Shown: positions 3,764-17,195 of the stretch, one piece after another
Layout of the letters: each line of letters starts with the position of its first letter
Position numbering within the stretch: the stretch's first letter is position 1
DNA from: a virus
Direction: 5' to 3' (one strand)
Length of the DNA stretch: 20,114 nt
IMG/VR virus record: IMGVR_UViG_3300030389_005119
Location: 1 to 20,114 of that record
The notes under the pieces: model-generated
Databases searched by the model: none
The model's input: the letters and a program-made list of their open reading frames with translations, nothing else
What the model was told of the DNA's origin: nothing
Made by a program: the position numbers and the translations under genes

Positions 3764-6700
3764 TTATCTCAGTGCTAGTATTAATGGTGTTACTTCTGCT
3801 TGAATTGATCTACTAAAATCTCTTCCAGAAATTGTTGATGTTGTTTGGTTAATTTGCAAACCTGCTCCTATATCAAAATTACCTTGTTGATCAGTAGAGG
3901 TAAATGGTATTTGTGCTCCATCAGAAGCAACAACTTCATTAGCCTTTATAGGAATAGCACCCTGCAAGGGTGTCGCTATATTTATATCTGTACCAGTACC
4001 AACATACTCGAAGGAGTGAGAACTTGTTAAAATACGACTAATTCTTTGTAAAGAGAATGGATCATCTGGGAACAACTCGTATGGTATAAATTCATTAAAT
4101 GTGATAGATGTGATACCTGTCGTTACTGTTGGAATCGTTGCAGTTTCAACAGTATAAAATATTGGTTCCATAACAGCTGTTGCGAGTCCTGTATTACCCT
4201 CAATATCAACGACTATATTTTGTCCTGAAAAATAATTTCTACCCGATGCAATTACATCCACCCCAACAAGTTTTCCTGCTGCGTCTATATCTGCAACTGC
4301 CTCTGCGATAATACCTTGTGGTCCTTTTGGTTCCACCTCTCCATCAGCATCCCTTATTAAAACACTTGGTGGATCAATCGCACTAAATCCTGTTAAGTCA
4401 GCACCATCAATTAATTTAACAGATGACAGCTGTTCAAGAGGTGATGTAATTCTTTGTTCTCCATCAAGTGTGCCTGGTTGAAGATTATCTATATTTACAT
4501 CTGCAATGTAATTAGTTACTTTTATCTTGAAGTATAATGCCTGTCCATCAAATGGTCTTCTTACATTATTATCCGAATCCTTAAGATTCGCAACAACAAC
4601 CGTATCTTGATTTTCAGGATTTGTGCTTGCAATTAGTTCTCCAGCTGGATTTGTACTACTTACAATACCAGTAAATTGAGTTGATCCTAACCCAACAGCA
4701 ACCAAACCGAAATTACCAAAAGAGGAGTTTGAGTTTGTTAAATCACATTGTGCTCCACTTGATGCAAAAATACCAATATCAGTGTTTATTGTGAATATGG
4801 ACACTAACTGGGCGTATGCATTATTTGTAAGAGAGACACCAATACCTGCTTCATTATATTGTGTAAATGAGTCACAAACCATAGATTTCAAATCTGCTCC
4901 AAGAATATTAACTCCTGTAAATCTTGCATCTGCATTATTTCCATCCACTTTCATACCAATACTTCCTGTCATGAAGTTCGTGCAGTTTCTTATGTATGGT
5001 GACCTCCATCTTCCTGATGGACCTTCATTCGCAGGACCAGGTTCTGTATATCCAGTTATTGCACTATCAGGACCAACAGGAGTAGGGAAGGCAACACAAG
5101 CGGCACCATCATGTGGTATACCGACATTTGACCCTCCAAAGTTTAGGTTTTCTATGAGACATCCTCTTCTAACATGAAAAACATCCTTAAATGTATTTTT
5201 TGGTTTAATAATACATAATCGAAGATCCTCACCTGTAACTGAAACATCAGTTCTTAATCCAATTGGGTTGTCCTCCTCATAAACGCCAGGTCTAATCTTA
5301 ATCGTATCTGTTTCAACTGCGATTGAAGCTGCAGCTCCAACAGTTGCTTTTGCATCACCCTCAAGTAATCCACTATTTGTATCGCATCCGTTTTTTGATA
5401 CCCATATAGTTCTTTTTGTCTGAACACCAGAGGGTCTCCATGAAACTCCAGTTCCCACCGATGCTAGACGATAATCCGTTTTACAGACACCAACCTCACT
5501 TGAATATCCTATACTGTCATTGATATCTTTTACTGGTCCGTCTAAATCAACTGTATCTGAGAAAGTTGAAACACCAGATACTCTTAGATCATCTAACTCA
5601 GTGTGTCCATCAACATCCAAGTTAGCATTCGCATCTATATCACTCTCAAATGTAGATATTCCTGAAGCACTTAATTGTGTGGTGAATAATGTGCTCTTTT
5701 GAGTGGTGATACCAACAAAAGTTGAAACACCAGAGACCTTTAAATCAGTGGTATCTAATTGTCCGAAGACTGTGGCACCGATTCCTGATGTGGAAAATCG
5801 TTTAGTTCCATCGTAATGTAAATTAACTGGACCAAAAGCATCAAAAAATCCCATTGTTTCGCCGTTATCGACGTTTTGAATTAGAATATCCTTACCTGTA
5901 AGAATTAAATTTCCTGCTCCTTCATCACGAATTATACTGTGATTACCTGAGTGAAATATGTGGAGATCATTTCCATCTCCAAATTTTAGTTTTGCATTAT
6001 CAATAAACTTAAAGGAATTATCTGACTTATCAAATCTTACTGAAGTTATTCCAGATGCTCCATGAAACTCAACATCATCCTTGAATGTTGAAACACCAGT
6101 AACATTTAATTGATCAGTATCAGTAGTTGCCTCTACAAAAATATCCTTACTAAAGGTGGCTATACCAACAAAAGTTGATACACCAGACACTCTTAAATCA
6201 TCTATCTCAGTATGCCCATCTACATTAAGATCCGCATTCATAACTACGTTTGCATTAAATGTTGATGTCGCATTTACGGTTAAAGTATCATCAGATGCAT
6301 CACCAAGTACCGTATTTCCTGCTACATCTAAATTTGCATTTGCGTCTATGTTACCTTCAAATGTGGCTAACTCTGCTACATTTAATACATCTAAATCTGT
6401 TTGACCATCTACGTCTAAATCTGCATTTGCGTCTATATTTCCAGTGACTGTTAAAATCTCACCAATATTTAAATTCTTCACAATACCGACACCACCATCA
6501 ACTACTACAGCTCCAGATGTAGTATCAATTGATTGTGTTTGATCATCTACATCTAATCTTCCAACAATCTGTACATTTTGATCAAATTTAGCGTTATCTT
6601 CAAAAGTTGAAATACCAGTAACGTTGAGTTCACCTTTTAGTCTTGTATCTCCAACGACATCCAAACTTACAGATGGAACACTACTTCCAATACCAACATT

Positions 6701-8167
6701 GGACATTCTGTAGACACTTGCAGTGGCACCACTTCCTACAAATCCCCACAAATCAAATGTTAATATGTTAGCTAATCCAAAAAAGTCACTTGTTCCAAAA
6801 TCAAATGTTGATGTTACATCTGATGATAATAAAGAAGCTTGTGATATAGTAACCACACCAGCAGTATTACCTGCAGGTACTGCAAGAACAGTTGCTCCTA
6901 ATGACACGACACCATTAGTATCACAAACAACCAATTGTCCTACTTCAATGTTAGTAGTGTTATCTAAAAACAGTATTGTGGATGCTGAACCAACTAATGT
7001 TCCAGTTTTATTTTCAACTACAATATTGAAAGAATCAGTTCCTGCATCTTCTGGTCTAACAGTATCGGTTCCTTCACCAAAACTGTTTATTGATTTAAAA
7101 TTAACAATTGAATATGATTTTGCAGCTCCAGCTAGTGGTATATAATTTCCTTCATCCTGTATGAAAATACCCTCAGAGAAAGATGGTTCAAATGTTACCC
7201 AACGAACACCAGTTTCATCACGATTTAAGAAAGCACCACTCGCACCTGGTGAACCAGCAGAGTCATATAAATTTCTTGTAATTGCGAGACTACCATCAAT
7301 TGCCAGTCTTAATTTTCCATTTGCAGTATCATCAAGGAGATTGGTAATTTGATCAGGATTATCAGTTCCCAGTCCGACTCTTGAAGTCCGAATGCCAACA
7401 TCAGGAACTATAATATCACCAAAAACTGTAATTCCGACTCCAGATGTGGATAATCTTTGATCTCCATCAAAAAATAGGTCTACTGAGCTATTTGCATTTG
7501 CAACAACACTATTTTCACCTGATGTTGGTTGAAGATTTATAGAACCAAATCCATTATCTCTTATGAATAAACGTCCAGTAGTATTATCAATGAAAGCGCT
7601 TGACCCATTATGATATATTTTTAAATCTTCATCATCACCAAAAACTGCCTTTGCATTATCTCTAAAATATGCTGTTGTTCCAAATCCGACTGTCGCACCT
7701 ACACCTATAAAAATAGGATCTTGGAATTCTACAATTCCAAGAAATGTAGAAAATCCAGTGACATATAAATTTCTTAAATCTAAATCAAGTATTTTTGCCT
7801 TTCCACCCACATCGAGTAATTCTGTTGGTTGAGCACTTCCAATACCAACTTTTCCTGGATTTAATCTTGAATCTGCCGTTATAACTGTTCCACCAATTCC
7901 AACTCTTAACCTATCTCTAACTTCTAAGTCGGGGAAAGATAAAGCTTGACTAAAAGTAACATTACCTAAAAAAGTGGCGTCATCAGTAAAAGTAGTAACA
8001 CCTGTTATTTGAAGACTAGGTACACCACGAATATCTGGAACATTTAATCGACTTAAACTTAATTGCTGATTGGGTAAACTTAAAAATCCTCCAATATTAA
8101 CATCTTTTAAAAATGTTACATTTTCATTAAATTGTGCCTCGTTACCTGTAATTGAAATATCTGACAT
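3764..8167 (-). CDS. 1467-aa tail fibre / appendage protein with repeat shaft and beta-helix domain
   Basis: The largest complete gene. Residues 1-900 are a shaft of beta repeats: units such as DIDANANLDVDGHTELDDL and RVSGVSTFVGIATF recur, together with two modules of the form IYHNGS...DLFFDGDQRLSTSGVGITVFG (DNA about 7410-7640 and 5755-5980). From about residue 915 the character changes: KRTIWVSKNGCDTNSG opens a region up to ~1165 that looks like a right-handed beta-helix of pectate-lyase type, with PGVYEE and GCLIENLNF-like rungs. The C-terminal ~300 residues end in a STDQQGNFDIGAGLQINQTTSTISGRDFS segment followed by VTPLILALR, a closing motif I associate with marine T4-like structural proteins. 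The gene begins one base after the spike gene (TGAcATG). It could be a host-contact fibre or a baseplate-proximal appendage; enzymatic activity on polysaccharide is possible for the beta-helix but no catalytic residues could be assigned. Confidence 0.85.
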   Translation of the reverse strand: MSDISITGNEAQFNENVTFLKDVNIGGFLSLPNQQLSLSRLNVPDIRGVPSLQITGVTTFTDDATFLGNVTFSQALSFPDLEVRDRLRVGIGGTVITADSRLNPGKVGIGSAQPTELLDVGGKAKILDLDLRNLYVTGFSTFLGIVEFQDPIFIGVGATVGFGTTAYFRDNAKAVFGDDEDLKIYHNGSSAFIDNTTGRLFIRDNGFGSINLQPTSGENSVVANANSSVDLFFDGDQRLSTSGVGITVFGDIIVPDVGIRTSRVGLGTDNPDQITNLLDDTANGKLRLAIDGSLAITRNLYDSAGSPGASGAFLNRDETGVRWVTFEPSFSEGIFIQDEGNYIPLAGAAKSYSIVNFKSINSFGEGTDTVRPEDAGTDSFNIVVENKTGTLVGSASTILFLDNTTNIEVGQLVVCDTNGVVSLGATVLAVPAGNTAGVVTISQASLLSSDVTSTFDFGTSDFFGLANILTFDLWGFVGSGATASVYRMSNVGIGSSVPSVSLDVVGDTRLKGELNVTGISTFEDNAKFDQNVQIVGRLDVDDQTQSIDTTSGAVVVDGGVGIVKNLNIGEILTVTGNIDANADLDVDGQTDLDVLNVAELATFEGNIDANANLDVAGNTVLGDASDDTLTVNATSTFNANVVMNADLNVDGHTEIDDLRVSGVSTFVGIATFSKDIFVEATTDTDQLNVTGVSTFKDDVEFHGASGITSVRFDKSDNSFKFIDNAKLKFGDGNDLHIFHSGNHSIIRDEGAGNLILTGKDILIQNVDNGETMGFFDAFGPVNLHYDGTKRFSTSGIGATVFGQLDTTDLKVSGVSTFVGITTQKSTLFTTQLSASGISTFESDIDANANLDVDGHTELDDLRVSGVSTFSDTVDLDGPVKDINDSIGYSSEVGVCKTDYRLASVGTGVSWRPSGVQTKRTIWVSKNGCDTNSGLLEGDAKATVGAAASIAVETDTIKIRPGVYEEDNPIGLRTDVSVTGEDLRLCIIKPKNTFKDVFHVRRGCLIENLNFGGSNVGIPHDGAACVAFPTPVGPDSAITGYTEPGPANEGPSGRWRSPYIRNCTNFMTGSIGMKVDGNNADARFTGVNILGADLKSMVCDSFTQYNEAGIGVSLTNNAYAQLVSIFTINTDIGIFASSGAQCDLTNSNSSFGNFGLVAVGLGSTQFTGIVSSTNPAGELIASTNPENQDTVVVANLKDSDNNVRRPFDGQALYFKIKVTNYIADVNIDNLQPGTLDGEQRITSPLEQLSSVKLIDGADLTGFSAIDPPSVLIRDADGEVEPKGPQGIIAEAVADIDAAGKLVGVDVIASGRNYFSGQNIVVDIEGNTGLATAVMEPIFYTVETATIPTVTTGITSITFNEFIPYELFPDDPFSLQRISRILTSSHSFEYVGTGTDINIATPLQGAIPIKANEVVASDGAQIPFTSTDQQGNFDIGAGLQINQTTSTISGRDFSRSIQAEVTPLILALR
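6102..6186. repeat. 85-bp perfect direct repeat, copy 2 (1467-aa fibre gene)
   Basis: Second copy of the segment at 1102-1186, located in the shaft region of the 1467-residue fibre gene. Neighbouring repeat units in both genes are only similar, so this pair is far more alike than the rest. Confidence 0.9.
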
Positions 8168-15040: not shown

Positions 15041-15209
15041 TTCTTTGTTTGTTCTTTAAATTTTCTTCTTCAATATATTGTTCCAAGAGAGTAACGTATA
15101 CGTCTTTTTCCCATGGAATCATATTTTCAATCTCTGTCAGAGAGTATTTATGGTGCTGCATCAAAGCAAAATTTATTTTAAAGTATGACTCTAAACTAGT
15201 GTGAGCCAT
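15030..15209 (-). CDS. 59-codon ORF, probable -1 frameshift extension of the gp26-type protein
   Basis: This ORF (MAHTSLESYFKINFALMQHH..., with SLTEIENMIPWEKDVYVTLL and a charged EEENLKNKQR end) begins two bases after the stop of the gp26-type gene. Its frame is exactly -1 relative to that gene, and no stop lies between the slippery heptamer and its ATG, so slippage would give a fusion of 238 residues plus R-V-G plus these 59 residues (300 in total). The motif of an aromatic-rich helix ('IPWE..VYVTLLEQYIEEE') resembles the C-terminal extensions of frameshifted tail-assembly chaperones such as lambda gpGT and the P2 E+E' product. Independent initiation at the ATG is possible too, since GAG lies five bases upstream. 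It overlaps the GTG of the tape-measure-like gene by 11 bases. Confidence 0.75.
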   Translation of the reverse strand: MAHTSLESYFKINFALMQHHKYSLTEIENMIPWEKDVYVTLLEQYIEEENLKNKQRSGI

Positions 15210-15239
15210 ACCTACTCGAAAAAAGACGATAACCCTTCT
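15181..15239 (-). promoter_or_regulatory. Programmed -1 ribosomal frameshift signal
   Basis: Read on the minus strand, three elements line up. AGAAGGG (15239-15233), a Shine-Dalgarno-like stimulator, lies eight bases before the slippery heptamer T TTT TTC (15224-15218), which is in the correct X XXY YYZ phase of the gp26-type gene (codons TCT TTT TTC). Four bases later an 11-bp stem begins: AGGTATGGCTC (15213-15203) pairs with GAGTCATACTT (15191-15181), including two G-U pairs, around an 11-base loop. The zero-frame stop TAG is two codons after the heptamer. The two G-U pairs mean the stem is complete only in the minus-strand RNA. The arrangement is the same as the E. coli dnaX signal and the lambda G-T signal. 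Efficiency cannot be estimated from sequence. Confidence 0.8.
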
Positions 15240-16718: not shown

Positions 16719-16757
16719 CTAAATACTTTATATTTTGTCTTACTATCTATTTAGATG
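16716..16757. promoter_or_regulatory. Divergent late-promoter pair inside a perfect inverted repeat
   Basis: CATCTAAATA (16716-16725) and TATTTAGATG (16748-16757) are perfect 10-base inverted repeats separated by 22 bases. The outer three bases of each arm are the start codons of the tube-like gene (minus) and gp4 (plus). Each arm also holds CTAAATA reading toward the opposite gene: plus strand 16719-16725 for gp4, minus strand 16754-16748 for the tube-like gene, each about 30 bases before its ATG. CTAAATA is close to the T4 late element TATAAATA. No Shine-Dalgarno is visible for either gene. Confidence 0.65.
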
Positions 16758-17195
16758 TCATATAAAGGTAGATATAGACCATCGAATCCAAAAAAATACA
16801 AAGGTGATTCATCTAATATAATATATCGATCACTTTGGGAAAGAAAATTCATGGTTTATTGTGATAATCAAACGAAAATACTTGAATGGGGAAGTGAAGA
16901 AATAGTATTACCCTATCGATCACCGATTGATAATAAAGTACATAGATACTACCCAGACTTTTACATCAAAGTTAGAGAATCTAATGGTAAAATCAAAAGA
17001 TATATTATTGAAATCAAACCTAAGAAACAGACAATCGAACCAAAGATGAAAAAAAGAAAAACGAAGGGATATATTTACGAAGTATACGAATATGCAAAAA
17101 ATCAGGCTAAATGGAAGGCAGCAGAGGAGTTTTGTAAGGATCGAATGTGGGAGTTTAAAGTATTAACCGAAGACGAATTAGGTATTAAGAAATGA
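16755..17195 (+). CDS. gp4: Head completion protein gp4 (TnsA/PD-(D/E)xK-fold)
   Basis: Close resemblance to T4 gp4 (about 150 residues) over the full 146 residues: YKGRYRPSNPKKYKGD, YRSLWERKFMVYCDN, PYRSPIDNKVHRYYPDFYIK, YIIEIKPKKQT, NQAKWKAAEEFCKDR and a final LTEDELGI. The fold is that of TnsA-like nucleases; the residues in place of the active site are E29, D68 and E86-x-K88. In T4 the protein is needed to finish DNA-filled heads so that tails can attach. It starts the plus-strand cluster, overlaps the next gene by four bases (ATGA), and should be driven by the CTAAATA promoter 30 bases upstream. The acidic/lysine residues are intact, so nuclease activity cannot be excluded. Confidence 0.93.
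   Translation: MSYKGRYRPSNPKKYKGDSSNIIYRSLWERKFMVYCDNQTKILEWGSEEIVLPYRSPIDNKVHRYYPDFYIKVRESNGKIKRYIIEIKPKKQTIEPKMKKRKTKGYIYEVYEYAKNQAKWKAAEEFCKDRMWEFKVLTEDELGIKK

Follow-up and report, generated by a model that had tools for sequence, protein, structure and literature searches.

A probable −1 ribosomal frameshift joining gp26 and gp51 in the tail region of a marine T4-like phage

We propose, with a probability of about 90%, that gp26-gp51 of a marine, T4-like phage is made by a ribosomal −1 slip, with most ribosomes giving the short form, and that the resulting pair of proteins likely acts in tail or hub assembly as chaperones. From the sequence, a backward slip of the ribosome by one base toward the end of gp26, yielding gp26-gp51, is almost certain. 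The stretch of DNA analyzed here (the window, 20,114 nucleotides) covers positions 1-20,114 of the IMG/VR virus record IMGVR_UViG_3300030389_005119 and carries a T4-like tail region. Among annotated phages, the nearest relative is the Synechococcus phage S-SKS1 (Llyrvirus), which shares the gp26-gp51 arrangement.

The gp26 gene and its −1 extension

The gp26-type gene (15931-15212, minus strand, as are all parts of the cassette) encodes a short product (TAC-N) of 239 aa that matches PF12322 T4_baseplate in a profile search (2.2e-74) and phrog_150 (8.1e-82), the latter covering profile positions 5-233 of 282. A first-pass annotation, made from the window sequence, had read an in-phase T TTT TTC near the end of this gene, followed two codons later by the zero-frame stop, and both are borne out: the heptamer occupies 15224-15218 in the phase TCT-TTT-TTC-GAG-TAG, and the TAG lies at 15214-15212, the second codon past the heptamer. 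A −1 extension of 62 codons and a stop runs from the re-read C at 15218 to 15030, opening into a 59-codon ORF as had been claimed, and the slipped product comes to 238 + 62 = 300 residues with the junction ...SSFF-RVGMAHTS.... By sequence, the short and long forms have the N domain in common.

The 59-codon ORF (15209-15030, with its ATG at 15209-15207) lies within this extension and would supply the long product, TAC-NC, with its C-terminal domain. Its matches include phrog_634 (2e-28), the gp51 profile named 'baseplate hub assembly catalyst', and the C-terminus of T4 gp51 (35% identity, BLASTP 1e-5), and it also matches positions 240-278 of the 282 in phrog_150, directly past the part matched by gp26.

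Under the proposed mechanism, the majority of ribosomes would halt at the TAG and release the 239-aa gp26, or TAC-N. A minority, aided by a stem-loop just downstream, would slip from UUU-UUC to UUU-UUU on U UUU UUC and read on through CGA-GUA-GGU-AUG into the 300-aa TAC-NC, whose C-terminal domain would be the gp51 of databases. We infer the slippage itself, and its efficiency, from these sequence features. The two forms would most likely work around the tape measure as paired chaperones of tail or hub assembly, by analogy with lambda gpG/gpGT and T4 gp26/gp51.

Conservation of the slip site and rival readings

Relatives of the cassette were drawn from IMG/VR and GenBank phages, plus single records, and amount to 281 distinct loci. 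They cover Kyanoviridae, Llyrvirus, Eurybiavirus, and Vibrio and Aeromonas Straboviridae, along with the Pseudomonas phages pf16 and Milchi and phages of Stenotrophomonas and Rhizobium. The first-pass annotation had proposed a comparison of heptamer phase, −1 frame, and stem with compensatory changes among relatives, and all three prove to be conserved. An in-phase TTTTTT[C/T/G], 7-10 nt ahead of the stop of gp26, is kept at 275 of the 281 distinct loci, and the gp51 ORF is in the −1 frame at 278 of them. Among 50 representatives with <75% identity between any two, the retention of T TTT TT[C/T] against gp26's own codon usage gives log10P = -40.7, a value that assumes independent lineages and thus overstates the significance. 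Chance is therefore ruled out by the conservation of the heptamer. In Synechococcus, Prochlorococcus and Methylophilales phages the protein motif FFR[VIL][AGS][LMV] spans the slip site without a break, as does a similar motif in phages of Vibrio, Aeromonas, Pseudomonas and Rhizobium.

The best surviving alternative is that gp26 and gp51 are separate genes, with gp51 translated by termination-reinitiation at the ATG at 15209-15207, which in the window's lineage stands 2 nt past the gp26 stop. Many GenBank records do annotate gp51 as a gene of its own, an ATG is found at −1 codon index 3 in 122 loci, and the heptamer is absent from Ackermannviridae CRW-SP2, where the two ORFs meet in a TAATG overlap. 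However, 76 distinct loci have no ATG, GTG or TTG for at least 15 codons past the slip site, and these codons are under strong purifying selection: over 17 codons of the start-less loci, dN/dS is ~0.10 in the −1 frame vs 3.2 and 2.2 in the other two. A start-less segment that is under selection as protein must be entered from upstream, that is, from gp26. Separate translation is further opposed by the T6 heptamer, kept in phase far beyond codon usage, by the burial of the ATG in the stem, and by the GenBank gp51 starts of P-HM2, S-CAM3 and S-H38, which are placed later and cut into the conserved domain. We regard this alternative as very unlikely.

S-SSM6b has no gp51 annotated, and the GenBank annotation starts inside the conserved domain or is missing at four loci (L003, 1189-1281; L172, 1186-1299; L173, 1204-1317; and L169).

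Slippage of the RNA polymerase on the T-run, giving a mixed mRNA population with no ribosomal frameshift, is less probable still, and we consider it extremely unlikely. The homopolymer of six T, which reaches seven or eight in a few relatives, would be its substrate, but six T's are short for slippage by bacterial RNA polymerase. The run is moreover exactly six T followed by C in most lineages and is held in strict codon phase; an extra T would still encode Phe-Phe, yet the run stays at six, and the conserved stem 4-6 nt downstream fits stimulation of the ribosome. Slippery heptamers are common in A/T-rich DNA, with 52 in-phase A/T examples in the window's genes, but a functionless reading, in which a fast-evolving overlapping ORF meets a chance heptamer, is refuted by the conservation data and by the homology of the −1 domain to T4 gp51, and has next to no probability. 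Among those 52, the gp26 site has by far the longest −1 continuation (62 codons, the next having 43) and is the only one near the end of a main gene.

Several loci depart from the common arrangement. Two candidate exceptions were set aside as probable indel errors: L006, where gp26 and gp51 are in frame (2205-2220, site TCTTTTTGG), and L069, which has a frame break in gp26 and comes, as does L006, from metagenome 3300049043. L142 also has a frame break in gp26, and L092 is without the gp26 end. Vibrio K452 carries CTTTTTG only, the canonical heptamer being absent. The corresponding regions of CRW-SP2 and K452 lie at 1540-1560 of L184 and 1705-1725 of L183. In these two phages, other routes to the long form are possible. 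At L345 (around 1200-1231) the heptamer is present, and the zero frame runs about ten codons further rather than stopping two codons later.

Signals flanking the slip site

An 11-bp stem four bases downstream of the heptamer had been noted in the first-pass annotation, and it withstands two kinds of scrutiny, an excess over synonymous recoding and covariation. Its arms, AGGUAUGGCUC and GAGUCAUACUU, lie at 15213-15203 and 15191-15181 on the minus strand (15213-15181 in all), after a 4-nt spacer. The window stem has an MFE of -12.8, compared with -6.1 for synonymous recodings (p 0.018). In class A, which is the window's lineage with an ATG at −1 codon 3, the fold is more stable than that of synonymous recodings at p<0.05 in 18 of 22 representatives, and against this null the combined Fisher values are 2e-20 for class A and 2e-10 for class B. 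Covariation, assessed on a set picked without regard to the stem, is 0.242 vs 0.165 when shuffled, with 0/500 shuffles reaching the observed value, while sliding the partners gives at most 0.132. The share of paired cells (64.9%) and the covariation each lie above every one of the 500 shuffles and of the six slid versions. The clearest compensatory column (24/38) alternates among T-A, G-C and A-T (A-U in RNA). The shuffles keep relatedness, and the covariation therefore lends support without amounting to proof on its own.

In other lineages the stem position is taken by different hairpins, as in P-HM2 (GCCCTC/GAGGGC), S-CAM3 and S-N03. The result for class B is mixed, and no stem was found in some class-B relatives (S-H38, syn9). 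The 6-bp GCCCTC/GAGGGC hairpin of class B, often formed by the TAGCCCT region, would be a different stimulator at the same position. The TAGCCCT motif past the gp26 stop is common to the class-B loci L003, L282, L285, L312 and L334. It is conceivable, though we think it doubtful, that in the window's lineage the conserved ATG within the stem also gives a free 59-residue TAC-C by reinitiation, the stem balancing short, long and free products, and that the other lineages swapped in unrelated hairpins.

The SD-like AGAAGGG that had been put forward as part of the cassette is present eight bases upstream of the heptamer (15239-15233, minus strand), but it bears no mark of selection. Synonymous recoding gives elements just as strong (p = 0.75 for the window; of 50 representatives, 1 falls below 0.05). 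Since it sits inside conserved Glu-Gly codons and is no stronger than synonymous recodings, we treat it as probably incidental and reject it as a stimulator, there being nothing beyond the conserved codons. An upstream SD-like stimulator is not obligatory for −1 programmed ribosomal frameshifting.

Relation to T4, lambda and other tail assembly systems

In T4 itself, gp26 and gp51 both match PF12322, and their genes are on opposite strands. In T4 gp51, one ORF carries a full PF12322 domain (3.9e-52) and, after it, a phrog_634 C-terminus; >1300 T-even-type records have gp51 as a single ORF. Given that T4 gp51 is a contiguous gp26-like and gp51-C protein, the gp26-gp51 fusion corresponds, in cyanophages, to T4 gp51, and the make-up of T4 gp51, a gp26-like N domain plus a C-terminal domain, fits the TAC-N/TAC-NC scheme. 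T4 thus has two forms from two separate genes with no frameshift, whereas the window phage would obtain both from a single gene through the slip. Each record among the listed complete genomes matched at one place, with no sign of a second long gp51; the window itself is a 20-kb fragment, and its genome may hold another gp51 elsewhere. The first-pass annotation had taken the gp26-type protein for a chaperone made in two forms of 239 and 300 residues. The frameshift joining and the homology to T4 gp51 speak for the two forms, while the chaperone function is suggested by homology.

With candidate tape-measure genes behind it, the proposed scheme would parallel those of lambda (gpG/gpGT) and P2 (E/E+E'), where −1 slippage close to the 3' end of a short gene lying just ahead of the tape-measure region yields a rarer, C-terminally extended form. 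Their heptamers differ from that of the window, no sequence similarity was detected to either, and the window system is known from sequence. Directly downstream of gp26/gp51 is a 475-aa ORF (15040-13613, minus strand) whose matches fall within large phage tail proteins of the 'endolysin/peptidase' kind, followed by a 393-aa ORF (13611-12430, minus strand) with a weak match to phrog_58, tail length tape measure (1.6e-6). The first-pass annotation had placed the cassette right before tape-measure-like genes; the matches of both ORFs to tape-measure families are weak, and we would call them candidate tape measures. Elsewhere in the window, two very long tail proteins on the minus strand (3-2765 and 3764-8167) carry many 'VSGVSTF' motif repeats, and a gp4-like head-closure protein on the plus strand (16755-17195) matches the TnsA-like endonuclease N-terminal family PF08722 at 5.6e-24.

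An AlphaFold (AF2) model of gp26 has a pLDDT of 87 and matches gp26 family models. A PDB fold search with this model gave no significant match; the most probable (0.60) was the solved HK97 TAC 2ob9, at E 1.3 and TMt 0.42, and the likeness of the modeled fold to it is suggestive only.

The frameshift reportedly appears conserved in several T4-like groups, while T4 encodes the two proteins apart, in genes 26 and 51. G-T frameshifting is described by Atkins et al. 2016 (PMC5009743) as conserved in long-tailed phages 'except T4', and PMC10885494 states that in some T4-like phages a short gene is accompanied by a long, fused one. The references of the latter list Vladimirov, Gautam & Davidson 2022 (Virology 566:9-15) as identifying the TAC genes of T4-like phages, and PMC12846349 cites that study on T4-like phages whose TAC-N genes carry polyT −1 signals. 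The assertion in the first-pass annotation that frameshifting was undescribed for T4-like gp26 was therefore wrong in kind. As far as the study is represented in these sources, its T4-like TACs comprise a gp26-type TAC-N and a gp51-type TAC-NC, as in the window phage. In Vandenendeviridae/Andersonviridae (phage Adele, PMC12846349), a T-rich −1 site, GTTTTT, also lies at the TAC-N 3' end, with the −1 frame open through 'intergenic' sequence, but these are other families, and the window has T TTT TTC. Our literature search, which did not reach the text of Vladimirov et al. 2022, returned no cyanophage-specific statement of the frameshift.

The window locus is a well-supported further instance of the published idea of TAC frameshifting in T4-like phages, and the result is in line with the view, already in print, that chaperones serve T4-type tails by the same logic as in lambda. 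Sullivan et al. 2010 (PMC3037559) recorded cyanophage gp51 as annotated at ~20% of the length of T4 gp51, a shortness that would arise because gp26 supplies the rest by frameshifting. Hundreds of marine phage records with a truncated, mis-started or missing gp51 should accordingly be re-annotated as gp26 plus a −1 extension.
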